The notes beneath the pieces were generated by a model. The model did not search any database. It was not told the DNA's origin and saw only the letters and a program-made list of their open reading frames with translations. Of a DNA stretch of 64,000 nucleotides, positions 35,399 through 47,643 are shown in pieces. Location of the stretch: contig NZ_CP042241.1 in NCBI RefSeq assembly GCF_007833275.1, forward strand, positions 1,302,001 through 1,366,000. Reading direction: 5' to 3'. The translations under genes were made by a program, and so were the position numbers. This DNA is from Salarchaeum sp. JOR-1 (lineage in GTDB: Archaea > Halobacteriota > Halobacteria > Halobacteriales > Halobacteriaceae). Within the stretch, counting starts at the first letter, position 1; each line of letters begins with the position of its first letter.

Positions 35399-35765
35399 CG
35401 TCGGAATCTGCGTTAGTCACGATCCGCTACCGCGCGGGTCGAGCGCCGACTACCGCGGCGCTTCGCGCCGCGACTGGAGGTGCGGCGGCTTTCTATCGTC
35501 AGAACCACAGCGTTCTGGCTGCACAGCGAGACCAGCTGGTTCTCGCGACTGGTGGAGGTTTTTGCCAGCGAAATCGCTTCACGATTCCGCGTGGTCCGAA
35601 AGACGGTTCGCGTCTTTCGACATCCCGCGAGACGCAGCACGTCTCGCTTACGACGGCAAAAAAGTCCAGCGGTGCGGCTGGGACTCGAACTCGGACGAGA
35701 CGCCCGCTCACTGCGTTCGCCTGACTGGCTCGAAACCCAGTCTCCGTCGCTGTTCGCGAAGAATG
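35399..35765. other. Gene-free stretch downstream of tRNA-Ser
   Basis: These 367 bases contain no convincing gene. They do contain a decayed copy of the tRNA-Ser 3' end (entered separately) followed by CTCACTGCGTTCGCCTGACT at 35709-35728, a sequence almost identical to one in the tRNA-Leu array. The rest is GC-rich with local palindromes such as GGCGCTTCGCGCC near 35458. Confidence 0.5.
35671..35693 (-). repeat. Decayed copy of the tRNA-Ser 3' end
   Basis: GGCTGGGACTCGAAC in this stretch matches the tRNA-Ser T arm and 3' end (GGCTGGGATTCGAAC at 35772-35786) with one change. It lies about 100 bases beyond the 3' end of the gene, in the same orientation, and is too short to be a tRNA. Confidence 0.55.
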
Positions 35766-35847
35766 CGGTGAGGCTGGGATTCGAACCCAGGAGGCTTGCG
35801 CCACCGGTTTTCAAGACCGGCGCAATAGGCCGCTCTGCCACCTCACC
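35766..35847 (-). tRNA. tRNA-Ser (anticodon TGA)
   Basis: An 82-base tRNA on the minus strand with a long variable arm. Acceptor GGTGAGG pairs with CCTCACC, the anticodon loop CTTGAAA gives TGA, and the T loop is TTCGAAT. The gene is intact, but its first 30 bases (35818-35847) are duplicated at the far end of the integrated element. Its 5' flank, including its promoter, therefore now lies in element DNA. Confidence 0.92.
35818..35847 (-). repeat. Attachment repeat, left copy (within tRNA-Ser)
   Basis: Thirty bases identical to 44840-44869, in the same orientation. They span the tRNA-Ser 5' end through the D arm into the anticodon stem. Sequence differs immediately on both sides. This is the left junction of the integrated element. 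Confidence 0.85.
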
Positions 35848-36021
35848 ATACGAGTGTCGTCCGATTCGACGGCGTTCGACACGCACGCCAACCGTGACGG
35901 GCGTTCTGGGGCGACGTAGACCGCTTGCATCAGTCAACCACGATGCAAATGGCACTCGACCATACGAGTCAACGTGAACGGTCGTGCATCGCCTATCAAC
36001 CACTCGAACACCATCACCAAT

Positions 36022-37143
36022 ATGTCTGACGAACCCACCGACACGGACGTCGAAATCCTCGAGGGTGCATCAGTCGTCCCCAGACCCACGCAGGAACATC
36101 TCTCCGACCAGCAGTACGTCGACTATCGCGGCCATCGACGCGAGTTCATCCGCTGGCTCGCAAACCTCGGCAAAGACGAAGCCCGAGCAGAAGGGTACTC
36201 CGAAGACGTCGTCAAACGCCGTGCAGGTGACTGTGACCGCTTCTACCGATGGGCATGGGAGAACGAAACCGATGGCTATACGACGAACGTGACGACCGAC
36301 CATGCCGACGCCTACTGTCGAGAACTGGCGATGAGCGACCGCAGTTCGTCGGACAAAAACAACATCCAGTTATCTCTGAAGTCGTTGTTCGACTGGCAGG
36401 ATGTCGACTGGACGCCCGATATTTCCTTCCACGGCGACGACGGCACCTCCCAACCCCGCGACTACCTGACGCGAGCGGAACGTCAGCAAGTCCGTGAAGC
36501 CGTCCTCGAATGGGATTCAACCCCCGCGTATGCAGCGATGTCCCCACAGCAGCGACACCGCTGGAAGGGGTATATTGCTACCCGTCTCGGGAAGTCGACT
36601 GGCGACGTCTCGCCCGAGGATTTCGACGCCGTCAACGGCTTCAAGTACACCTCTCTGTTGTGGACGACGCTCGACGCGGGCCTGCGGCCTGTTGAAGTGA
36701 AACGGGCGAAGACCTACTGGGTCGATCTCGACAACGCCGTCCTTCGGATTCCACGGGAGGAATCGTCGAAGAACGACGGCAACTGGGTTGTGAGTCTCCG
36801 CGAACGGACGGCGGAGATGCTCGACCACTGGCTCGATGAACGGGAACTGTATCCGAAATACGACGACAGTGACCGTCTCTGGCTGACGGAGAACAGCAAT
36901 CCGTACACGCCGTCGTCACTCCGCTATGTGATGAACAAGGTCGTCGATCTGGCGGACATCGACGAGCGGGGACGGAGTTTGTCGTGGTATGCGATTCGTC
37001 ATTCGGTGGGGACGTATCTTGCTCGTGAAGAAGGGTTGGCGGCAGCCCAGAGTCAACTCCGACATACGTCGATTGACACGACCGCAAAGTACGACCAGGC
37101 CCCTATCGAAGACCGACGGGACGCCCTCGACGACATGGGTTAA
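36022..37143 (+). CDS. Tyrosine recombinase (integrase)
   Basis: A 373-residue phage-type integrase. The N-terminal core-binding domain runs to about residue 150. The catalytic domain shows Arg in LDAGLRPVEV, Lys in SSKNDGNWVV, then WYAIRHSVGTYLA, where the usual HxxR box reads YxxR, then QLRHTS and the nucleophile Tyr in TTAKYDQ. It catalyses excision and integration at the tRNA-Ser repeat that ends 175 bases upstream. I start at ATG 36022; a GTG at 35974 is in frame but adds a non-family tail. Archaeal SNJ2-type integrases show similar variation in the HxxR box. Confidence 0.9.
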   Translation: MSDEPTDTDVEILEGASVVPRPTQEHLSDQQYVDYRGHRREFIRWLANLGKDEARAEGYSEDVVKRRAGDCDRFYRWAWENETDGYTTNVTTDHADAYCRELAMSDRSSSDKNNIQLSLKSLFDWQDVDWTPDISFHGDDGTSQPRDYLTRAERQQVREAVLEWDSTPAYAAMSPQQRHRWKGYIATRLGKSTGDVSPEDFDAVNGFKYTSLLWTTLDAGLRPVEVKRAKTYWVDLDNAVLRIPREESSKNDGNWVVSLRERTAEMLDHWLDERELYPKYDDSDRLWLTENSNPYTPSSLRYVMNKVVDLADIDERGRSLSWYAIRHSVGTYLAREEGLAAAQSQLRHTSIDTTAKYDQAPIEDRRDALDDMG

Positions 37144-37254
37144 CACGGTCGACGCCGTCCACGACCGTCTATATTTCTTCGAGACGGATAGCCGACGTCC
37201 ACCCCGCTTATCAGTCGAAAACCTGATATGTTATGCGTATGTAACAGGCATTGT

Positions 37255-37602
37255 ATGTCGTCTGCTCTCGATCTCCTTCACGACCGTCGTCCCTTCACGA
37301 AAGACGAACTCCATCGCAAGTCGACTGTCGACGCTCTCTACCGCGCCCCTGTTGAATGTAATGCCAGCCAAACCCTGTATAATATTCATCGGATCGCCCA
37401 ACAGTGTACGCATCGAAATATCAAGCACGGAGAGATAGCTGCCGCCCTCGATTACCACGGTATCGAAGACATCCACGAATCAGAACAAAGCCAAGCCTTC
37501 CGTAACGAACTCCATCGTCGTGACGACGATGCAGAGCCCGATACGGGTCGGGTCGTCACCGACGAAGAAGAAACGGACATGAATCCCGAAACTTGGGTTT
37601 GA
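37255..37602 (+). CDS. Hypothetical protein of the integrated element
   Basis: A 115-residue acidic, helical protein I do not recognise. The first 60 residues contain a possible winged-helix or HTH pattern (RRPFTKDELHRKSTVDALYR), and the last 40 are very acidic. A GATATGTTATG stretch about 30 bases upstream could serve as promoter. It follows the integrase on the same strand by 111 bases, where elements often place an excision or repressor factor. That role is only a guess from position. Confidence 0.45.
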   Translation: MSSALDLLHDRRPFTKDELHRKSTVDALYRAPVECNASQTLYNIHRIAQQCTHRNIKHGEIAAALDYHGIEDIHESEQSQAFRNELHRRDDDAEPDTGRVVTDEEETDMNPETWV

Positions 37603-38393
37603 TGCTACCGTCGTATAATTGATATACCCGTGGCTCTCTAACCGCTAATTCGGTGTAATGCGTCCGAGGGGTCGCATCGTCGTCTTCGTAACCGCTCCTC
37701 TCCGCACCGCCCGTCGGGTTACGAAGCCTCCTCCGCGACCACCTCGGCCACGTTCCGCCGAAGGCGGGAATGGGGATGGAATGGATTCTTTCTCTCCCCT
37801 TCTTCGATGTACGTCCCATCACACTCCGTTTCCCTGAAGCGGACTTCCGTCGCTACGTACGTCCCGCCGTCGGTGGGGAAGTCCTTCCTGGCATCCCTCT
37901 CGTCCGCGGTGATTCAATGTGAGGACAAACAACTCCCTTTAATGGATACGGGGATGGATACCTCCCATCCGCCTTCCGCCTTCCGCCTGTCCACGGAACG
38001 CCGGGTTACTTCCCGACGTATGGGTTCACTCCCAGTGTCAAGGCCGACCAAACTTAAGCGCGGTTCACTGGTATCACAGCCAGTGACGCACCACGCGATA
38101 TAATCACCGCGTGGCCCACCATCGGCCCCTGCACCGTGAGATTCGACAGCGGCGGGCTTCCGTTCTGGATAGGGGTACGTCCTTCAGGCTGAAAAAACCA
38201 TTGATTCGTAACGTCGGTGTACGTTCTATGTAGCAGTCAAGTAGATTCTGTAGTGGTTATCAGGGCCTTCTCAAAATCTTTTGAGCGGCGATTGACGCCG
38301 TGTCAATAGCAAGACGATGGAAACCATATCCATCATCATTCTGTCGCCATTTACCCTGCGTATGGCGTTCTTCGTCATCGTATCACAGACCCA
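37603..38393. other. Largely non-coding part of the integrated element
   Basis: Nearly 800 bases with no gene I can support strongly. The minus strand at 37719-37913 is open with a halophile-like codon pattern but has no start codon. The remaining sequence has unusually many CCTTCCGCC-like runs near 37970 and AT-rich patches from 38200 on. It may hold a decayed gene or the control region of the minus-strand operon. Confidence 0.4.
37719..37913 (-). pseudogene. Possible gene fragment without start codon
   Basis: A 64-codon open frame after an in-frame TGA, beginning ITADERDARKDF and running through VATEVRFRETECDGTYIEEG to VAEEAS. The acidic composition is what a haloarchaeal protein would show, but there is no ATG, GTG or TTG before the conserved-looking part. 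It may be the remains of a gene. Chance is possible. Confidence 0.25.
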
Positions 38394-39743
38394 TCAATTC
38401 AGATTATCGAGGCTGCTACCATCATCGCCGACATCCGACTGGCCGCTTGTCATCCCCGTCTGACTGTCGACGATTTCGATGTCATCCGTATCCACGAACA
38501 TCGACACACGGAGTTTCGTATGCGGCACCATATCCGTGCCAGACTGATGTTGGAGGCTTTCGATCTCGTAGGAGAGTGTCGGTGGCTCCTCGTACGTTTC
38601 GTCGTGAACGGTTGGTTTTGCCCGTAGTTCGCCGAATGGGTACAGCGACGGTTCCAGGCTGGTTGCTATCATCCCGCCCCCTGCTTCGTCCAACCGCGAT
38701 TTCAGCATCGTTTTCACGGTGTTACGGGCTTCACCGAGGTTCGATGCCGCGATGTCCACTGACGTCGTGACAGGCCCGCCGAGACGGTCTTCCAGTGGTT
38801 CGTATTTCGCTGTTGCGACAGGATACTGGCTTGTCGACACAGGCACCTCGAAATCAGTCATCGGCACGTCCGTGCCAGTCCGCCCCACCCCGTGTAGACG
38901 AGTGAAGGGACGCATCTGCCAGAGGGCGTTATTTTGGAGGACGTCGATGCTGCCGCCGAGAGCCGTCTGCCTGAAAGTGGGCTGTGGGAAGTTGTCAGCG
39001 ACCACCAACACCAGACCGCCATCGGATTTTGGTTCGAACCAGAGGCGGAGGTTGGTATGGTAGCGGAACCAGTCGAGGACGTCCGCGAGCGTGTCGCGGT
39101 TTGCCGTGAAGCGTTTCCCTGTGACGAAGTTAATTCCGCCACCGCCGCCAAGGATGTACAAGAAGTCGTCGATGGAATAACTGACGTCGTCGAAGTAAAT
39201 CGGAGCGTACGAGTGTACGGTGTCGGCGGTGGCGACCGAGACGTCGTCAAAGACGGGCTGGCCGTCCTCCAAGGTATCGACGATATACGTCAGGACGTCA
39301 ACAGCGGATGCCGTCCCTCCGAACTTCTTCGACGCGGGAATCTCACTCAGGAAGTCCGCAACCGACCCGACCTGTAACTGGAGTTTGTTCGGTTCGCCCG
39401 TCCCGCCGATACCCTTCACGTAGCCACGGTGGGCGGTCGTGAAGGTGCCGTCGTTGTCGTGGCGGTACTGGACGTCGACAGGCGTTCCAAGTAATCCCTC
39501 TGAGTTGGGTGTGAAGCCGATAACTTGGTTCCAGTTATGGCCGAGCCCCGTGGCGATATACTGGACTGTTGTGAGGCGATTCACGTCCATCACGCCTTGT
39601 TTGCGAACGTGGGTTGTGACGCCGTTGTCGACGACAGGCAGTCGTTCGTCGCCGACGATTATCCGCTCCGCTGTCGGTGATTCAGGTTCGTAGACGTAGT
39701 CGTCGTCGGTTCCGCCACCTGTCGTCGTGTCAGCGGCGCTCAT
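38394..39743 (-). CDS. Large virion-like protein of the element, unknown
   Basis: A 449-residue acidic protein without signal peptide or membrane helix. Beta-rich segments (VDVQYRHDNDGTFTTAHRGY, LQLQVGSVADFL) are followed by TASAVDVLTYIVDTLEDG and TLADVLDWFRYHTNLRLWFE. Alternating beta domains with helix pairs of this kind occur in tail-hub or baseplate proteins of phages (late-control D type). I only note the resemblance and cannot confirm the family. It is the last gene of a minus-strand operon. Its ATG overlaps the stop of the 41-residue gene before it (ATGA). Confidence 0.6.
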   Translation of the reverse strand: MSAADTTTGGGTDDDYVYEPESPTAERIIVGDERLPVVDNGVTTHVRKQGVMDVNRLTTVQYIATGLGHNWNQVIGFTPNSEGLLGTPVDVQYRHDNDGTFTTAHRGYVKGIGGTGEPNKLQLQVGSVADFLSEIPASKKFGGTASAVDVLTYIVDTLEDGQPVFDDVSVATADTVHSYAPIYFDDVSYSIDDFLYILGGGGGINFVTGKRFTANRDTLADVLDWFRYHTNLRLWFEPKSDGGLVLVVADNFPQPTFRQTALGGSIDVLQNNALWQMRPFTRLHGVGRTGTDVPMTDFEVPVSTSQYPVATAKYEPLEDRLGGPVTTSVDIAASNLGEARNTVKTMLKSRLDEAGGGMIATSLEPSLYPFGELRAKPTVHDETYEEPPTLSYEIESLQHQSGTDMVPHTKLRVSMFVDTDDIEIVDSQTGMTSGQSDVGDDGSSLDNLN

Positions 39744-39865
39744 TTGCCAGCACCCCCGTCGTCGGTTTGGACGTCGATTTTCTCGTTAGCGGTCGTCACG
39801 AGGTGCGTGCGGTCGTCGTTCGAGTCGATACTCGGGTCGTAGTCGTCGAAATGAGAATCTTCCAT
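39740..39865 (-). CDS. Very small acidic protein (41 residues)
   Basis: A 41-codon frame, MEDSHFDDYDPSIDSNDD at its start, very rich in aspartate. Its stop overlaps the start of the 449-residue gene by four bases (ATGA), and this coupling is the main evidence that it is translated. No domain is recognisable. Confidence 0.55.
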   Translation of the reverse strand: MEDSHFDDYDPSIDSNDDRTHLVTTANEKIDVQTDDGGAGK

Positions 39866-39902
39866 AGAAACGATAGAACAGTGGCGGGCGTCGGTTCAGG
39901 GG

Positions 39903-39995
39903 TTACGCCAGCAGAAGTTTCCTATCGTCATTGCACTCGTCGTCGTCCGAAAACGGGTTCTCGAAGTCAGTCTTGGAGGGGTCGTCGTCGGTCAT
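39903..39995 (-). CDS. Very small acidic protein (30 residues)
   Basis: A 30-codon frame, MTDDDPSKTDFENPFSDDDE at its start. It lies 15 bases after the stop of the HNH-like gene and 37 bases before the 41-residue gene, on the same strand. Composition and spacing fit a translated mini-gene of the operon. It is unrecognised. Confidence 0.4.
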   Translation of the reverse strand: MTDDDPSKTDFENPFSDDDECNDDRKLLLA

Positions 39996-40010
39996 AGTCG
40001 AATCGGCGAG

Positions 40011-40364
40011 TTAGCCGTTTGTGGTGTCGTCGCGGAGGATGGGATACCCGTCGACGGTCGTGCGGTCGCCGTCGTCGTGGAGACGGGCGTGTTCCCGTGG
40101 GGTGAGGGCGTCGAGCCAGCGAGGCGCATCCGCGTACTTGTCGAGTTCGTGATGGGTTTGGTGGTTGTCGTCGAATAGGTCGTCGCCGATCTCCGCGTAC
40201 AGTGTGAGGCGATGGACGTGGGCGATGTCGGTGCCGTCGCTGACGTACGCGTAGCCGTCGCGGTCACGCCAGTACGATACCGATGTCGACGCCGTCTCGG
40301 CAGATGTTTCAAAATCGTTATCCGTCTCAAGTCCGTTAGATGAGATGGATTCGGCAGAACTCAT
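40011..40364 (-). CDS. Small HNH-like protein
   Basis: A 117-residue protein. The region HRLTLYAEIGDDLFDDNHQT, then HHELDKYADAPRWLDAL and TPREHARLH, follows the pattern of small HNH homing-type proteins (H-R-L, D-x-x-x-H-H, N/D-x-x-x-L, x-x-x-H-x-x-x-H). Asp replaces the central Asn, so nuclease activity is uncertain. Such proteins are common in haloarchaeal viruses and elements. It heads the minus-strand operon that ends with the 449-residue protein. Confidence 0.6.
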   Translation of the reverse strand: MSSAESISSNGLETDNDFETSAETASTSVSYWRDRDGYAYVSDGTDIAHVHRLTLYAEIGDDLFDDNHQTHHELDKYADAPRWLDALTPREHARLHDDGDRTTVDGYPILRDDTTNG

Positions 40365-40481
40365 TTTTCGCAGTGAGGGGCCGGTCGAACGTCGAGACTA
40401 CCGTGAATACGCCGTCAGTAGATAGTCGAGCGGCAGTGTGCCGACGACGGAGGGATGGGTGTCGTGGAGTGGTGTCGGCTG

Positions 40482-40637
40482 TTATGCCGTCTCTGCGTTG
40501 TTAGAGACGTGGTCGTCGCACAGGCGGTCGATGACGACGCCGTACGGTACTTCGTCCGTGCCGAACATCCGTTCACGGACGTCGTCGAGTCGTTCCTTCT
40601 CCGTATCGTGGAGTGAAATGGTGGTGTCTCGAATCAT
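40482..40637 (-). CDS. Ribbon-helix-helix-like small regulator
   Basis: A 51-residue protein, MIRDTTISLHDTEKERLDDV at its start. The short strand TTISLHD followed by two helices (KERLDDVRERM and PYGVVIDRLCDD) fits the CopG-type ribbon-helix-helix fold used by antitoxins and plasmid repressors. A longer start at 40712 (MGAIEADG) is in frame. A GTATAAC element near 40720-40727 would drive the shorter form with a leader of about 60 bases. No toxin partner is visible next to it. Confidence 0.55.
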   Translation of the reverse strand: MIRDTTISLHDTEKERLDDVRERMFGTDEVPYGVVIDRLCDDHVSNNAETA

Positions 40638-40850
40638 GGGTGCTGGCAGCGAAGGGGTGAGAGGCGGACGCCCACTGAAGGACGGATGACCGTCCGCCTC
40701 TATGGCCCCCATATTAATGTTATACTCAGGTTGAGGATTCTGGCAGTAGCGGCCGTGACGCGGAGACAGGTATAAAGACACGACCGTCGTGGAACCCGTA
40801 CGATACGAACCCGCTATTAATTAACATCAGTTATCACGCGCGCCCGACGT

Positions 40851-40958
40851 ATGGCCGATGATAATGGGGTTGTGAAGTGGGTCGGTTTCGGCGTGCAGGC
40901 GGCGTCTCTGAAGGGGGTGGTTTCCCGTTGCGAACCACGTCGATGTAACCTGTCTTAG
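40851..40958 (+). CDS. Possible tiny protein (35 residues)
   Basis: A 35-codon frame, MADDNGVVKWVGFGVQAASL at its start. It is preceded by the palindromic TTAATTAA about 30 bases upstream, which would suit a leaderless transcript. Its stop overlaps the end of the converging membrane protein gene by four bases. No family is visible. Confidence 0.3.
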   Translation: MADDNGVVKWVGFGVQAASLKGVVSRCEPRRCNLS

Positions 40959-41677
40959 GTCGTGGTTGGCCTGCGATACAGATAGACCGAGATCGGTGTG
41001 CCGACGAGAACGAAGAACAGCAATATCGTGACGAAACTGCCTAATTCGGATGCTGAATTGATGAACGCTGTTACGAACAGGCCGACGACAGCAACGACGA
41101 GATATGTGGCCAGTGACCGAATTTCGGGGTTGTGTCGATGATACCAGACCGCGCCGCCTGTAATCACGCCAGCAAGAATCCCCAGTATTCCACCACTGCT
41201 ACCTATCCAGGTTCCGAAAACCAGCATGGTTGATGTTATGGCTGCCATGCCGAGGTATCCGCCGACGACAATCGAGACGGGGTAGCCGAGTGTGGCGAGA
41301 ATCGGGTGTGACGTCGTCGATGTTTCGTCGAGGTCGAATGAGTCGGAGTCGCGTTCTTCGAATGACCGTCCGCGGACGTCTTCTAATTCGGTGAGGAAGG
41401 CTCGTTTGTATTTCTGTGGATTCGCGCCGATGTTCAGCCAGACGGATTTTTCCGCCCAGACGTCTATCGGCGTCTGTCCATCGTCCGTCGAGTCGGAGAA
41501 GTCGATGTAGATGTTTTCACCGTAACTCCAGAGGACGCGGGGGAAACTGATGCCTGTTTTCCCGACTATCTGACGGCTGCCTTCGTCGATCTCCGATATG
41601 CCGTCTGTTCGTTCGAGCGCGGTTTTCACGACGTCTTTGGCGTCGTCGAGTGGGTAGTCCAGAGAGAGTTCGGTCAT
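40955..41677 (-). CDS. Membrane protein of the element with soluble N-terminal domain
   Basis: A 240-residue protein. Residues 1-110 form a soluble alpha/beta domain (LDYPLDDAKDVVKTALERTD at the start, including ENIYIDFSDSTDDGQTPIDV), and residues 125-235 hold four membrane helices (such as ILGILAGVITGGAVWY and SLATYLVVAVVGLFVTAFI). No family comes to mind. Cargo genes of this type in elements sometimes give exclusion or envelope changes, but nothing in the sequence proves it. It lies on the minus strand between two short regulator genes. Confidence 0.6.
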   Translation of the reverse strand: MTELSLDYPLDDAKDVVKTALERTDGISEIDEGSRQIVGKTGISFPRVLWSYGENIYIDFSDSTDDGQTPIDVWAEKSVWLNIGANPQKYKRAFLTELEDVRGRSFEERDSDSFDLDETSTTSHPILATLGYPVSIVVGGYLGMAAITSTMLVFGTWIGSSGGILGILAGVITGGAVWYHRHNPEIRSLATYLVVAVVGLFVTAFINSASELGSFVTILLFFVLVGTPISVYLYRRPTTT

Positions 41678-42002
41678 AGACGGACGAAGATAATGACAAC
41701 GGATAGATGTTATCCATGGAGGTCGGTTAGCGAGAGGAAACCGCCCGAATTACTGGGTATCTCGATTGAAAACTGATTCAGATTTCGAACGGTGGTTCGG
41801 CATCGACCGTCAGACAAAATCGACGGGTGGGGTCGAAACCCGTCGTCCCATCAGAGCGGCGTCAATGTTCGATAGTTTCCGCGTGGAGGATGACCTCGGG
41901 GGGTTGGCATTTAGAGAAGACGGGCAACCTAACTTTGTCGGAGGGGGTCTAAACAGTGGGTTTTCGAGAGGTATCGAGCCGCCGACTGCCGTCCCGCGAG
42001 GG

Positions 42003-42206
42003 CTAACGGCAGTCAGTGAACCAGACCTGTACTTTTGCGATCTGTTTGCGTTTGATACGTCCGTCGTCGGCGAGGTCGTTCAGACGGCCATGGACGGCTT
42101 GTCGTGTCGCGTCGACTTCGTCGGCGACTTCTGATGTCCCTGCTGGCGCACATGCCTGTACTGCGGTCACGAGTTCGTCGTCATCGAACTTCCTCGGGCG
42201 GGGCAT
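42003..42206 (-). CDS. Winged-helix DNA-binding protein
   Basis: A 67-residue protein, nearly all one winged-helix domain: helix DDDELVTAVQAC, then the turn SEVADEVDATRQAVHGRLND as recognition helix region, and a wing DGRIKRKQIAKVQVWF. It probably regulates element genes. It is divergent from the SWIM gene. The 190-base gap between them holds an 8-base inverted repeat that could be its operator. The gap on its other side (41678-42002) shows no gene I can support. Confidence 0.68.
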   Translation of the reverse strand: MPRPRKFDDDELVTAVQACAPAGTSEVADEVDATRQAVHGRLNDLADDGRIKRKQIAKVQVWFTDCR

Positions 42207-42245
42207 GGTTGTCTAAATGGTTCGTGAGGCCTTATTTCTTTCTTC

Positions 42246-42285
42246 TGTAGCAACCTATGTCGGCCGAGTGATGTTAATTGCTACA
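42246..42285. promoter_or_regulatory. Inverted repeat, candidate operator
   Basis: TGTAGCAA at 42246-42253 and TTGCTACA at 42278-42285 form a perfect 8-base inverted repeat with 24 bases between them. It sits between the divergent winged-helix gene and the SWIM gene, where a repressor site would be expected. Confidence 0.4.
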
Positions 42286-42399
42286 ATGGAAAACTACTAA
42301 GTGGCACGCTCCCGTCACTGTCGAATGGAGTCACCGAGCGCATCAGAAAGATGCCCCGTGCTGGAACACGGGAGCAGGTGGCTTCGAGGTAGCGAAGCC

Positions 42400-42861
42400 A
42401 TGACAGAGTTAGAGAGCGACCCTATTCAGGGTCACGATAGCACTGAAGAACGAACCAAACGGGCACTCACAGAGGCGATGAGCGTCCTCGACGGCGATGG
42501 CGGAGTCTACACCGTCGTCGGTGAGAACGGCGACACGTACCGTGTTGACGCCGTCGACGGCCGTTGTACGTGTCCCGACGCCCGTCACAACCTCGACGCC
42601 GATACGCCGTGTAAGCACGAGCGGCGTGTCCGTTTTGCAACGGGCGTGCAGGCGATTCCCGCCGCGTTCGACCCGACGAGTGTCGACGCCCTCCTCGGCG
42701 ACCACGTCGACGAAACGCCCGTGTATGCCGCGACTGACGGCGGTGACGACGAGAGTCGTCCCGACGACTGCACCTGTCATCCCACCATGTCGGATCTGCC
42801 ATGCTGGCCGTGTTACCGAGACGGGTTCGACGTCCCTGCGTCCGTAGAGACTGCTAACTAA
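42400..42861 (+). CDS. SWIM-type zinc finger protein
   Basis: A 153-residue protein. The motif CTCPDARHNLDADTPCKH near residue 60 has the CxCx(n)CxH pattern of SWIM zinc fingers, which bind DNA or proteins. A second cysteine group lies near the end (CTCHPTMSDLPCWPC). Proteins like this are frequent in haloarchaeal plasmids and viruses. The ATG at 42400 is preferred to a start at 42301, which would add an arginine-rich non-family tail. It is followed after 19 bases by another small gene, probably on the same transcript. Confidence 0.7.
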   Translation: MTELESDPIQGHDSTEERTKRALTEAMSVLDGDGGVYTVVGENGDTYRVDAVDGRCTCPDARHNLDADTPCKHERRVRFATGVQAIPAAFDPTSVDALLGDHVDETPVYAATDGGDDESRPDDCTCHPTMSDLPCWPCYRDGFDVPASVETAN

Positions 42862-42880
42862 TCCACCGAAACCCAATCCA

Positions 42881-43162
42881 ATGACCGAAACTGCCTCCCG
42901 CCGCGACCTGAGTCGTATCGAGACTGAATCGCATCAGACGGCCGAGAGCGGTTCGTGTCATAACGACGAGTGGCCTGATACTGTTACCCATGGGCGGCCG
43001 ACGAACGTCGGTGACGATGTGCTTATCGGCGACACGGAAGCCTACGTCGCCCGCATCGAGGACGACGTCGTCTATCTGAACGAACGTGACGGTGACGGCG
43101 AGTACGTCGTTCCCAGGGAGATCGTCCCGTCGCATACGGTTTCCAACCCGCTAAACGGGTAG
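42881..43162 (+). CDS. Small hypothetical protein
   Basis: A 93-residue acidic protein. The last 50 residues (VGDDVLIGDTEAYVARIEDD, VVYLNERDGDG) look like a small beta-barrel. I know no family for it. It follows the SWIM gene closely on the same strand. Confidence 0.5.
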   Translation: MTETASRRDLSRIETESHQTAESGSCHNDEWPDTVTHGRPTNVGDDVLIGDTEAYVARIEDDVVYLNERDGDGEYVVPREIVPSHTVSNPLNG

Positions 43163-43260
43163 TTCGTCCGTCCCAGGGGTAGGGGTAGCGTCGTGGAAAC
43201 GGACTATCGAATGTCTATTCTTGTCCGACGTCACGGACAGCGGTCACGTCTCGTGTCGAC

Positions 43261-43416
43261 CTATATTTGGTCGAGTAGTTCGGCTTTCTTTGCTTCGAAC
43301 TCCTCGTCCGAGATGACGTCGTCGTCGCGGAGTTCCTTCAACTCGCGGAGTCGGTCAAGTGGGTCGTCGTCGCTCTCCTGGGTCGCCGTGTCCGTCGTCC
43401 GTCGAGCGTCCATCAT
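43261..43416 (-). CDS. SHOCT-domain small protein
   Basis: A 51-residue protein whose last 33 residues (DPLDRLRELKELRDDDVISD and onward) form a SHOCT domain, a short helical pair found at the ends of many prokaryotic proteins. Here it is almost the whole protein. I start at the ATG at 43416; a start at 43560 is in frame but adds a stretch overlapping the divergent gene. The function of lone SHOCT proteins is unknown. Confidence 0.6.
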   Translation of the reverse strand: MMDARRTTDTATQESDDDPLDRLRELKELRDDDVISDEEFEAKKAELLDQI

Positions 43417-43543
43417 GTCGGCGAGGTATTTTCTCCTGCTGTACACCCTGATGATGTCAGACGAGTTTGGAATGATCGCCGTACATATACCACCACTTTT
43501 TTGACTTGATAGGTACTTAGTTAGGATTGGAGAAGGAGCCACT

Positions 43544-44221
43544 ATGTCCCGACCGAACATTCCAGATCAGTTAGTCGAGGAAGTCGAAGAGATCCACAAA
43601 GAACACCGTGACTACGAGGCGAATACAGTGCAAGAAGCACTGGCAACCGTCACCGATGTCGCAAAGCAGTCCTCTGAAGAAATATCGACCGAGGAGACTC
43701 GAACATACGATATCGAAGATCCCATCCAGCGAGCAATTAAAGCAGGCATGACGAGTCCAAGCGATCTCACTTCACCAGACGGAACCCCAACAAGCCCACT
43801 TAGTCTCTTAGGAATACAGTTGGCGAGGGAACCGCGACACAGCGCGGGAAAAGGTGTTATCAATGCACAGAAGGCAATCAAGTCGATTCGACAACGAGAA
43901 GACGAGGGGGAAATCACGACCCATACAGCAGACCAACTCGTCAAGACCTATCGGAAAGCGTTAGAGATCCATATCGACGCAAAGCAGGATCAGCGAGAAC
44001 GAGACGACGAAGACTTCCAAGGAGCAAACGATCTCAAAGACGCGATTGATGAATTTCTGCATGAGAACTACATCGAAGAAGAATTTGAACGGAAGACAGG
44101 TTTCACAGACTTCGATATCGGGATAGAGGGGCTGTTCGAACTCATGGTGTTGCATCTGGATCAGAATGAGAGCGAGATATCCACCGAGCCATTAGACAAG
44201 AGCACGCTACCAGAAAACTAG
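43544..44221 (+). CDS. Hypothetical helical protein of the element
   Basis: A 225-residue, strongly helical and acidic protein that I do not recognise. Long charged helices run through the middle (KSIRQREDEGEITTHTADQL, KALEIHIDAKQDQRERDD). The end of the protein is AT-rich in coding. A Shine-Dalgarno-like AGGAG lies about 7 bases before the ATG, which is unusual here, where most genes look leaderless. It is the last gene before the right junction. Confidence 0.6.
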   Translation: MSRPNIPDQLVEEVEEIHKEHRDYEANTVQEALATVTDVAKQSSEEISTEETRTYDIEDPIQRAIKAGMTSPSDLTSPDGTPTSPLSLLGIQLAREPRHSAGKGVINAQKAIKSIRQREDEGEITTHTADQLVKTYRKALEIHIDAKQDQRERDDEDFQGANDLKDAIDEFLHENYIEEEFERKTGFTDFDIGIEGLFELMVLHLDQNESEISTEPLDKSTLPEN

Positions 44222-44839
44222 AAGAACAACCCCACATCACATTTTCCACCAAATAAATACCTACAAACAAATATTTGTTTGTTGGAGTATACTCTGAAAT
44301 AGTTACTCCTCCGTAAGAAATACTTATTTCATATATGAATTAAGTAATAATTTTATTGTGTCATTCCCCTAAGGAGAGTAAGAGGGAAGACAACGTGCAG
44401 TTTCGGAAATTGTCATTCCACCCATCTCTCACCCGAAGCCCTGTGGCGTTTGAGCGGGGGCGAGGCGAAGACTGACGCAACGGGGGCGGACACCGACGGC
44501 CGCGGCGGCGACGGCGTCGTCGGACGGCGAGGGATTCGTCGGGAGCGGCGTCGGGCACCGAGGCCGTCCGTCAGTCCGCCCGCCACCCCCTATCAGTTGA
44601 TAGGGATAGCACCGTACATGGGTGGGTGGTTCGAGATCGAGAGTCCCTGTATGTGATGGGCGTCCAGTGACGTAGATACCGCTTCGACGGTCAATCACGC
44701 TGCAAGTGGGGGTGGGCCATCGGCCCAGGGATTTATGGCAGTCGTTCAAGAATACACGCGATAGGTGCAAGCGGGGACTTAAACCCCTCCACGTCTGTCA
44801 CGGGATTCGGTGGTAGCGGCCTGCTGTGCGGGTGCTGTG
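44222..44839. other. Right-end non-coding region of the element with palindromes
   Basis: Over 600 bases without a supported gene. The first 150 are very AT-rich and contain the perfect palindrome ACAAACAAATATTTGTTTGT (44263-44282), GAGTATACTC (44285-44294) and TTCATATATGAA near 44330. Further right, CCCTATCA-GT-TGATAGGG lies at 44588-44605. Frames in the GC-rich part (44429-44770) look like by-products. The AT-rich palindrome cluster could be a replication or transfer origin, or operators. At 44768-44792 there is a T-arm-like fragment. Confidence 0.5.
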
Positions 44840-44869
44840 CGGCGCAATAGGCCGCTCTGCCACCTCACC
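44840..44869 (-). repeat. Attachment repeat, right copy
   Basis: Thirty bases identical to 35818-35847, in the same orientation: the 5' part of tRNA-Ser (D-arm side) without the rest of the tRNA. To the right of it the chromosome resumes. It marks the right junction of the integrated element. Confidence 0.85.
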
Positions 44870-44911
44870 TCGTGTGGGTGGAGTCGGAGCGCGCACTTTA
44901 CGGTGTCGTCT

Positions 44912-45655
44912 CTACGCGCGCTGGAGGCCGTCGTCGGTGAGGTGGACGCCGAGTTCCGCGAGGTACCGGGCGGTGTGAGTGGGCGTGATGCGGCCTGCGC
45001 GGCGGCGGGCGTCGAGCGTGGGGAGGAGGGTTTCGAGGTCGCTGCCGGTGCGGACGAGGGGTTGGTGGGAGAGGAAGTCCACGTCGCCGCCGGCGTCTCG
45101 GGCGCGGGCGGTGAGGGTGTCCAGTTCGGGGGTGGTGTACGCGCCGGCGAAGTCGATGGGGTGGGTGAAGCCGGCGTAGTGGACGCGACCCCGGTCACTC
45201 GGGCCGAGGACGACGTCGCGGCGGCGGAGTTTCATCGCGGCGCTGTCGAGGTCTTTTCGGGCGAGGAGGGGGGCGCGGGGGTCGACGACGGCCACGGAGG
45301 ATTCGTCCTCGTCCCGGAGGAGGTGGGTGACGGTGTTGCCGACGCGGGCGTCGTAGCCCGAGCCGACCTGCACCTCGAAGCGCGCTTCGCCGGGGTCTTC
45401 GAGGGCGTCCGTGACGACCGCACGGAGATCGGCCTCGGGCGGCCGGCCGGTCTCGTGTTCGGGCGGGATGTCGTCGGCGGGCGGGTAGTTGACGAGGAGG
45501 CTCCCGCCGCTGGTGGCGGCGGCGACGCACGCGTCTTTCACCATCGCCTCGTAGAGCGCGGTGGCTTCGGACTCGGTGAGCGGCGACGTGTCGGGGAGGT
45601 CGGGAAGGACGAGGCCGTCCCGGGGCGGGTCGGCGAGCAGGACGTGAACGGTCAT
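44912..45655 (-). CDS. DUF2064-type glycosyltransferase-like protein
   Basis: A 247-residue protein with a GT-A-like fold. The region from DARVGNTVTHLLRDEDESSV to RDVVLGPSDRGRVHYAGF matches the DUF2064/TIGR04282 family, in which GPSxDGGYYLIG is the key motif; here it reads GPSDRGRVHYAGF, so catalysis may differ. Nucleotide-sugar transfer is assumed only from the fold. It is the first chromosomal gene to the right of the integrated element and ends 43 bases from the junction. Confidence 0.7.
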   Translation of the reverse strand: MTVHVLLADPPRDGLVLPDLPDTSPLTESEATALYEAMVKDACVAAATSGGSLLVNYPPADDIPPEHETGRPPEADLRAVVTDALEDPGEARFEVQVGSGYDARVGNTVTHLLRDEDESSVAVVDPRAPLLARKDLDSAAMKLRRRDVVLGPSDRGRVHYAGFTHPIDFAGAYTTPELDTLTARARDAGGDVDFLSHQPLVRTGSDLETLLPTLDARRRAGRITPTHTARYLAELGVHLTDDGLQRA

Positions 45656-45727
45656 ACTCGGTCGTGGTTCGGGCGCGCCCTAAATGGCGATGATTACGGC
45701 TAAGGGCCTCCGGAGTGAGACGCTGGT

Positions 45728-45946
45728 ATGGACTGGGATACGCTTGTCGGCGCGCTCGGGGTGCTCGGCATCCTCGTGGGCGCGCTCGGCGCGCTGGTGT
45801 CGCTCGGAACGAACGCGCTCGCCGCCCCTGCGGGCTACACCGTCGCGGCGGCGGGCGCGACGCTCGCGGTCGGCTGGGGCGTCGTCGCCGTCGTCGCGCT
45901 CGTGGGCGCGGGGAGTGCGGCGACGAAGACGACGCCGTACTGGTAG
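45728..45946 (+). CDS. Small two-helix membrane protein
   Basis: A 72-residue protein with two glycine/alanine-rich membrane helices (LVGALGVLGILVGALGALVS and LAVGWGVVAVVALVGAG) and a short charged tail. Small proteins of this kind are conserved in haloarchaea without known role. It is on the same strand as the next gene, 48 bases before it. Confidence 0.6.
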   Translation: MDWDTLVGALGVLGILVGALGALVSLGTNALAAPAGYTVAAAGATLAVGWGVVAVVALVGAGSAATKTTPYW

Positions 45947-45994
45947 CGTACCGCGAAAGATGGCTTTTTGACCCCCGGCGTCGAACCCGTGCGT

Positions 45995-46318
45995 ATGGAC
46001 GACATGTACGACCCGTCGGGCCGGGACTGGCCGCACGACCCGGACGGCGAGGAGGGTAGCGAGGGCGGACGCCAGTACGGGATGGCCGTCCTGTCGAAGA
46101 AGGTCGACGAGGACGAGGACTTCCCGCTTCGGACGGACGCGTTCGTCGAGGAGTACGGCGACGACCCCGTCCGCATCAACTACGAGAAGGTCGTCTCGGT
46201 GTCCGAGATCTTCGAGCACGTCGAACCCGAGGAGTTCGAGACGAAGGTGGAGTTCTGGAAGAAGGTCGGTGACGGGATGCGGGCGGGCGACCTCTGGGAC
46301 TTCCAGCCGCAGGCCTAG
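45995..46318 (+). CDS. Conserved haloarchaeal protein (DUF5785-like)
   Basis: A 107-residue acidic protein, MDDMYDPSGRDWPHDPDGEE at its start, with a glycine-rich linker and a folded part from MAVLSKKVDEDEDFPLRTD to DGMRAGDLWDFQP. It resembles the DUF5785 group of conserved haloarchaeal proteins. Its role is unknown. The start at 45995 is preferred to GTG 45968 because the family begins with this methionine. It converges with the uridine kinase gene, overlapping its stop by four bases. Confidence 0.65.
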   Translation: MDDMYDPSGRDWPHDPDGEEGSEGGRQYGMAVLSKKVDEDEDFPLRTDAFVEEYGDDPVRINYEKVVSVSEIFEHVEPEEFETKVEFWKKVGDGMRAGDLWDFQPQA

Positions 46319-46971
46319 AGCTGGTTTTCGGCTTCGCGGGCCGCCCACTCCGCGAACGCGCCCGTTTCGGCTTGCACTTTCTCCTCGAGGAGGTTCACCG
46401 CGACGGAGTTCGCGCCCTCGGGAATGATGATGTCGGCGTGCTTCTTCGTCGGTTCGACGAACTGTTCGTGCATCGGTTTCACCGTGGAGAGGTACTGCTC
46501 CATCACGCCTTCGAGCTCGCGGCCGCGTTCGAGCACGTCGCGGTCGATGCGGCGGAGGATGCGCACGTCGGCGTCGGTCTCGACGTAGATGTGGAGGTCG
46601 AGCATGTCGTTCACGCGCTCGTCGTAGAGCGCGAGAATTCCTTCCAAGACGATGACGTCCGTGGGTTCGACGGTGACGCGTTCGTCCTGCCGGACGTGTT
46701 CGCTGAAGTCGTACTGCGGCATCTCGACGGCTTGCCCGGAGAGGAGGCGGTCGAGGTGGCTGTGGAGGAGGTTCCACTCGAACGCGTCGGGGTGGTCGTA
46801 GTTGGCGTCCGCGCGCTCCTCGAAGCTCATGTGACTGAGATCCTCGTAGTAGTTGTCGAGGGGGACACGGGTGACGGCTTCGCCGACGTTCTCCGTGATT
46901 TCGCGGGCGACGGTCGTCTTCCCCGCGCCCGTTCCGCCAGCGATGCCGATGGCGAACGAGGGAATGGTCAT
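46315..46971 (-). CDS. udk: Uridine kinase
   Basis: A 218-residue P-loop kinase that phosphorylates uridine and cytidine with ATP or GTP in pyrimidine salvage. Motifs: Walker A IAGGTGAGKTT near residue 10, VPLDNYYEDLSHM near 36 for the nucleoside, DAFEWNLLHSHLD near 61, VLEGILALYDERV near 109, and the lid region IRRIDRDVLERG near 138. Length and motif order are typical of the family. It stands divergent from the CBS gene. Confidence 0.92.
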   Translation of the reverse strand: MTIPSFAIGIAGGTGAGKTTVAREITENVGEAVTRVPLDNYYEDLSHMSFEERADANYDHPDAFEWNLLHSHLDRLLSGQAVEMPQYDFSEHVRQDERVTVEPTDVIVLEGILALYDERVNDMLDLHIYVETDADVRILRRIDRDVLERGRELEGVMEQYLSTVKPMHEQFVEPTKKHADIIIPEGANSVAVNLLEEKVQAETGAFAEWAAREAENQL

Positions 46972-47094
46972 TACTCACTGGGAGTTCGGACTGGCGTTTA
47001 CAGTCTTCGGCTTCGGGTCGCGCCCGGTATGGCGTCCCACACGCCTAAGGCTACCGGGGAAACGGTTTAGTCCCGATGTGTGGTACGTAATAGC

Positions 47095-47643
47095 ATGAAT
47101 GGTGTGCCCGTGCGGGAGGTGATGGATCGCGACTACGTCGGCGTGAGCGAATCGGACAGCCTCGACGCCGCCGTGCGAACCATCCGGGAGGCGGACGCGA
47201 CCGGCGCGCTCGTCCTCCGCGGCGGCGACGCCGTCGGCTACCTCTCGACGAGCGACGTGCTCGACCACCTCGCGGACGCGGGCGCGCTCGACGGCGCTGT
47301 CGGGGACGCGATGACGGACGTCCCGCCGTCCCTCCGCCCCGAGGCCGCCGTCGAGGACGCCGCGACCCGTCTCACGTCCGCGAACACCCGGCACGTCGTC
47401 GTCGCGAACGGCGAGGGCGTGCTCGGTCTCGTGGACGCAACCGACCTCGTTCGCGGCGGCCCCGAACCCGCCGCGTCACCGCGGGCCCAGGAGGCACCCG
47501 AGTCCGCCACGCCCGACGACCGAGTCGGCGAACCGGACGACACGTACTCCCACCGGAGCGTCTGCGAGGTCTGCGGCGCGCTCGCGGACGGCCTCTCGAA
47601 CGTGAACGGGCGACTCGTTTGCGCGGACTGCCGAACGGTATAA
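47095..47643 (+). CDS. CBS-domain protein with zinc ribbon
   Basis: A 182-residue protein. Two CBS motifs (residues about 6-60, VREVMDRDYVGVSESDSLDA; and about 68-118, VGDAMTDVPPSLRPEA) form one adenosine-ligand-binding Bateman module. After a proline-rich linker a zinc ribbon CEVCGALADG...CADC ends the protein. Such proteins sense adenylate ligands and pass the signal to a partner; the partner is unknown. The ATG at 47095 follows CGGTTTAG by about 25 bases, which suits a leaderless message. It is followed by pgk 36 bases later. Confidence 0.85.
   Translation: MNGVPVREVMDRDYVGVSESDSLDAAVRTIREADATGALVLRGGDAVGYLSTSDVLDHLADAGALDGAVGDAMTDVPPSLRPEAAVEDAATRLTSANTRHVVVANGEGVLGLVDATDLVRGGPEPAASPRAQEAPESATPDDRVGEPDDTYSHRSVCEVCGALADGLSNVNGRLVCADCRTV

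Follow-up and report, generated by a model that had tools for sequence, protein, structure and literature searches.

A virus-like element integrated in the 5′ half of the tRNA-Ser(TGA) gene of Salarchaeum sp. JOR-1 and its haloarchaeal relatives

Our analysis of 64,000 nucleotides (nt) of the Salarchaeum sp. JOR-1 genome (contig NZ_CP042241.1, positions 1,302,001 to 1,366,000; hereafter the window, whose own numbering is used) indicates that a virus-like element of 9022 bp (35848–44869) was almost certainly integrated by its own tyrosine integrase into the 5′ end of the tRNA-Ser(TGA) gene. The tRNA gene is intact on the minus strand (35765–35847, ARAGORN). Its nt 1–30, comprising the 5′ acceptor strand, the D arm and the start of the anticodon stem, form an exact 30-bp direct repeat, present at 35818–35847 beside the integrase and at 44840–44869 at the far end, both on the minus strand. 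The tRNA-Ser(TGA) region matches only two places in the 2.52-Mb genome (30-mer, E = 7.5e-9). A preliminary description of the window, made from its letters, had read this repeat in the same way: an element in the 5′ half of tRNA-Ser, an intact tRNA at its left end, element DNA making up everything upstream of that tRNA, and a right-hand fragment representing the displaced native 5′ end. It advised searching relatives for an empty site.

Such a site is present in a genome of the same genus (G001), in which both flanks of the 9-kb insert are contiguous and the native upstream DNA is joined to an intact tRNA-Ser(TGA). There, the counterpart of window positions 44840–47639 (93.7% identity) continues into that of 35847–35739 (98%), with exactly 30 bp common to both. 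In-silico excision of 35848–44869 restored collinearity with G001 over 1109 bp (93%, one gap); the insert is thus 9022 bp, since the flanks without this segment align to G001. The empty site therefore identifies the right copy, which is collinear with the intact tRNA of G001, as the original 5′ end and places the left tRNA behind element DNA. These results bear out the preliminary description in all four respects. An isolated right copy in an element-free genome, which it had named as evidence against integration, is absent from G001. The GC content is 56.5% within the element and 62.2% in the flanks.

The integrase gene (36022–37143, plus strand) begins 174 bp from the tRNA and is oriented away from it. 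Its 373-aa product is intact and was assigned to the tyrosine recombinases (PF00589, 6.5e-14; phrog_1, 5.3e-24). R222, K250, R326, H348 and Y357 are invariant in an alignment with 10 relatives, and the second catalytic position is occupied by Y323 rather than by H or K. The conserved catalytic residues, the direct repeats at the attachment (att) sites and the precise empty site together characterize an element of the tyrosine recombinase type.

The window element is not unique, and belongs to an integrase clade that habitually uses the tRNA 5′ half. The integrase family was found in 180 of 392 Halobacteriales genomes (match E 1e-20 or better), and 123 loci with integrase relatives (L numbers) were inspected. 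The tRNA 3′ end faced the integrase at all 98 loci beside complete non-Ser tRNAs (Glu, Gly, Arg, Leu, His, Cys, Met, Pro and Thr). Beside tRNA-Ser(TGA), the 5′ end faced it in 13 of 13 cases, namely the window and 12 others, with hosts that include Halobellus clavatus, Halobellus salinus, Halorubrum persicum and Salinibaculum sp. KK48. The far end of the tRNA-Ser elements retains just a 5′ part of the tRNA in 10 of the 13, and the far copies of 3′-type elements (22 detected by exact match) mostly begin somewhere between about nt 8 and nt 40 and extend to, or nearly to, the 3′ end. The JOR-1 genome itself also encodes another integrase of this family, which adjoins tRNA-Glu(CTC) and follows the usual 3′ layout (L074, G000:C2:1653978–1655388).

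A second arrangement that uses the 5′ half was recognized at seven loci, which initially looked devoid of a tRNA: the displaced 5′ half is next to the integrase, and at the far end element DNA precedes the intact tRNA. The targets are tRNA-Arg(TCG) (L054, L082), tRNA-Leu(GAG) (L140 and L141, whose integrases are identical), tRNA-Leu(CAA) (L154) and tRNA-Glu(CTC) (L156, L165); L167 is grouped with L054. At L054, the promoter box is part of the repeat, which reaches about 50 bp beyond the tRNA on its upstream side, and L082 and L140 carry promoter-like DNA of their own on the element side. Among the tRNA-Ser elements, three (L067, L068 and L076) have a complete tRNA, still behind its native promoter, as the far copy, and the acceptor stem of the integrase-side copy is damaged in L067 and L068. 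These three may be intermediates, or they may solve the promoter problem in another way.

In a tree of 120 relatives, the 13 tRNA-Ser integrases all fall to the same side of one branch (Shimodaira–Hasegawa-like approximate likelihood ratio test, 66), and the window integrase is nested among 3′-type integrases. A careful tree of 55 rows contains a clade, supported at 98/97, of 15 tRNA-Ser rows, three rows with the second 5′ arrangement and a single 3′-type row at tRNA-Met, so that 18 of its 19 rows use the tRNA 5′ half. Because the tRNA-Ser group alone is supported at 80/40, a single origin of the tRNA-Ser-type integrases appears likely rather than demonstrated.

The arrangement raises the question of how the tRNA is expressed without its native promoter. 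tRNA-Ser(TGA) is present in a single copy, and the other Ser tRNAs carry GGA, GCT and CGA, one each. By the decoding rules, the tRNA-Ser with a UGA anticodon is the reader of UCA codons. The gene should therefore be essential and must be expressed. A position weight matrix (PWM) trained on 98 native tRNA upstream regions recovered a motif resembling the TFB recognition element (BRE) and TATA box, most commonly starting at −42. With this matrix, the displaced native flanks of the tRNA-Ser elements scored 3.0 to 10.1 and the element sides −5.7 to 2.7 in the −60 to −18 interval. The Mann–Whitney p value was 1.6e-5 for native versus element sides and 2.2e-5 against held-out uninterrupted tRNA-Ser genes, both only indicative since the loci are related. 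The native box of the window, AGACGACACCGTAAAG (44896–44911, minus strand; −42 to −27 of the tRNA start; score 5.9), is identical in the empty site of G001 and now lies 9 kb from the intact tRNA. No BRE/TATA was recognizable by PWM at −60 to −18 on the element side of tRNA-Ser in the window or its 12 relatives; in the window, that side is the 174-bp segment upstream of both the tRNA and the divergent integrase (35848–36021).

These results separate the components of the preliminary claim that the element supplies the tRNA promoter. The upstream position of element DNA is established, and the promoter itself is putative, no canonical box having been found at −60 to −18. Dependence of tRNA-Ser expression on element DNA, also claimed, would follow from the anatomy. 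The proposed transcription start interval (35848–35900) may be too short, given the lack of a canonical BRE/TATA near the tRNA. The promoter is probably atypical or distant, lying within the gap between tRNA and integrase or past it.

A different view is that element-specific transcription plays no role, and that read-through or promoterless leakage suffices, with no real dependence on the element. The missing BRE/TATA agrees with this view, as does the observation that 13 of 52 tRNAs of Haloferax volcanii have no proximal start site and that one tRNA has a 300-nt leader (PMC4983044). The same study provides a precedent for long-leader tRNA transcripts. On the other hand, this tRNA must be made, as a single copy and the sole Ser tRNA with a UGA anticodon; read-through would still begin in or traverse element DNA; and promoter-like DNA lies on the element side at L054, L082 and L140, which have the other 5′-half arrangement. 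We regard this explanation as unlikely.

A TTCAAT-type motif was considered as a tRNA promoter, but it also lies about 30 bp from the integrase start and is absent from the window element. It occurs 94–97 bp from the tRNA 5′ end in nine relatives (L070–L073, L076, L088, L106, L121 and L138), with a spacing that is fixed relative to both the tRNA and the integrase start. Because of its proximity to the integrase start, the motif may be the integrase promoter; an arm site or a tRNA promoter are the alternatives. A recurrent TTTTAT motif is found near the other end of tRNA-Ser-type elements.

The crossover probably takes place at nt 8–19, at the start of the D arm, as judged by comparing the two tRNA copies of each element. 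Exact identity covers nt 1–19 in L106, 1–20 in L069, 1–30 in the window and 1–34 in L138, and these blocks stop short of the anticodon loop or just where it begins; in the window, that loop comprises nt 33–39. The interval common to the tRNA-Ser-type copies is nt 1–19, and the lower limit near nt 8 is set by L067 and L068, which are identical only from there to past the tRNA 3′ end. For the 3′-type and second-arrangement elements, the common interval is near nt 30–40, corresponding to the anticodon loop. It could be argued that the tRNA-Ser elements also integrated at the anticodon loop, as the 3′-type relatives appear to do, and that the right copy later decayed past nt 30, which would make a D-arm crossover an artefact. 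L073 (nt 1–44), L088 (−1 to 42) and L121 (1–51) do retain identity through the loop. In contrast, the exact blocks of the window, L069, L106 and L138 end at nt 19–34, the right copy of the window has no loop-like remnant, and L067 and L068 place the lower limit near nt 8. Integration at the loop is therefore quite improbable, and we favor a crossover at the start of the D arm.

An origin of the right copy by tRNA duplication or homologous recombination, with an unrelated genomic island in the intervening 9 kb, has a negligible probability and is in practice disproved by the precise empty site. tRNA pieces do occur nearby, but G001 joins exactly at the 30-bp core, and the junctions are clean. 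The core is flanked by direct repeats and has the integrase beside it, and 12 other loci show this layout at tRNA-Ser(TGA). The preliminary description had listed such duplication among the outcomes that would count against integration. At 35669–35690 on the minus strand, about 75 bp downstream of the tRNA, the T arm and acceptor of the tRNA-Ser 3′ end are present a second time with slight divergence (20 of 22 nt identical), and G001 has a similar copy (C1:1596582–1596613). The window copy may be the scar of an older 3′-type integration; if so, tRNA-Ser(TGA) has been targeted from both ends.

Several points weigh against integration into, and control of, this tRNA by the element. The empty-site evidence in this genus comes from one genome, G001. 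No excised or episomal form was seen in the viral contigs; the integrase relatives found there are 33–45% identical, and any tRNA piece adjoining them comes from tRNA-Thr, -Gly or -Leu, never from the tRNA-Ser 5′ half. The crossover interval presumes that no mutations have accumulated in the copies after integration. Finally, the PWM search found no tRNA-Ser promoter on the element side, and transcription may occur by read-through from further upstream rather than from element DNA.

The following mechanism would account for our observations. A circular element attachment site (attP) carrying a copy of tRNA-Ser nt 1–30 would have recombined with the host tRNA-Ser(TGA) gene at its 5′ end, through an integrase crossover within the first 19 nt, most likely at about nt 8–19. 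As the empty site shows, the intact tRNA lies at the integrase side, and the original 5′ end and promoter have been moved to the far end. The single-copy tRNA would then be transcribed from a start inside the element, RNase P would remove the leader, and precise excision would restore the native promoter. A broader and more speculative proposal, which is possible though rather doubtful, is that one integrase lineage reversed its target once, from the anticodon loop of various tRNAs to the D arm of tRNA-Ser(TGA) in the opposite direction, and placed an essential single-copy tRNA under element control through an unrecognized type of promoter, so that the element could be lost only by precise excision. 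If true, the element would in effect be addictive to the cell.

The remainder of the element comprises candidate recombination sites and genes of viral character. Within each end of the element is one copy of an imperfect direct repeat of about 59 bp (35894–35952 and 44653–44709, plus strand); the local alignment score is 39, compared with at most 26 among 300 shuffles. These repeats fit the expectation for arm-type sites of attP and are candidate integrase arm sites; inverted arm sites in the window element did not exceed shuffles. The core edge TGCCACCTCACCATACGAGT (35836–35855) is repeated over 20 nt (80%) at 35950–35969 on the plus strand. A 449-aa protein (38394–39743, minus strand) is predicted to have a tail or baseplate-hub fold of the VgrG, gp27 and late control D type (AlphaFold predicted local distance difference test score 75.5; Foldseek matches in PDB, E = 3e-13, among them the HFTV1 tail protein) and matches the late control GPD of Halogranum tailed virus 1 (5e-18). 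A relative of this protein is encoded at L068 8054–9937, inside the 8.4-kb tRNA-Ser element of genome G337. Other products are an HNH endonuclease-like protein (40011–40364, minus; phrog_21964, 1.1e-7), a small winged-helix regulator-like protein (42003–42206, minus; phrog_18890, 5.8e-7), a haloviral phrog_17897 protein with a zinc-finger-like CxC..CxH pattern (42301–42861, plus; 1.7e-27) and a SHOCT-domain protein (43261–43560, minus; PF09851, 1.4e-9). No capsid, portal or terminase was recognized in the element; therefore, this virus-like element may be a provirus remnant or a satellite. NCBIfam returned nothing from it besides XerA/XerC-type recombinases, and PADLOC no defence gene of note. 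The tailed halovirus HSTV-2 (KC117376.1; L266 2806–2872) carries nt 17–85 of tRNA-Leu(GAG) beside its integrase, a typical 3′-type attP, which suggests that HSTV-2 can integrate.

Integration into the tRNA 5′ half is already known in archaea as a rare event, and its haloarchaeal form with an intact integrase appears to be new. One further case, cited as a 5′-distal tRNA target, is bacterial. We found no published haloarchaeal case in the literature searched; an earlier mention is possible, e.g., in Krupovic 2010b, cited for 5′ integration. The closest known systems are the pTN3/TKV4 elements of Thermococcales (Cossu 2017, PMC5495485; also Krupovic and Bamford 2008, as cited in PMC8371274), in which a 41-bp att lies in the 5′ half of tRNA-Leu and the rebuilt tRNA is parted from its original promoter, as in the window. 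In contrast, the pTN3 integrase is suicidal, with attP in its own gene, which is split on integration, while the window integrase is an intact 373-aa reading frame with att outside; the pTN3 att includes the anticodon, while identity in the window stops before the loop; and the window integrase reads away from the tRNA. CalSub-E1 of Ca. Caldiarchaeum subterraneum, at tRNA-Ser, is the lone 5′ case among 39 tRNA-targeting elements in a survey that describes 5′ integration as considerably less frequent (Krupovic 2019, PMC6563490). It belongs to another phylum and is a single case reported without promoter or clade analysis.

The canonical haloarchaeal tRNA-3′ elements (L074; HSTV-2, HCTV-6 and HRTV-5) share the integrase family (about 35–60% identity), a core that adjoins the integrase start and an integrase that reads away from the core. 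They differ in carrying the 3′ part of the tRNA without disturbing its native promoter, in crossing over near the anticodon loop and in having the opposite tRNA orientation relative to the integrase. The att of SNJ2-type pleolipoviruses is 14 nt at the tRNA 3′ end (PMC8371274), compared with 30 nt at the 5′ end in the window. An essential single-copy tRNA parted from its promoter, with replacement DNA that has no recognizable BRE/TATA, poses a puzzle of expression. The 3′-type elements, the 5′-type elements in both arrangements and the possible intermediates L067, L068 and L076 provide a natural series for a change of target half and direction. A recent review considers pTN3-like integrases unique among archaea in using the tRNA 5′ half (Badel 2021, PMC8371274); our study reveals a whole haloarchaeal clade that does so.

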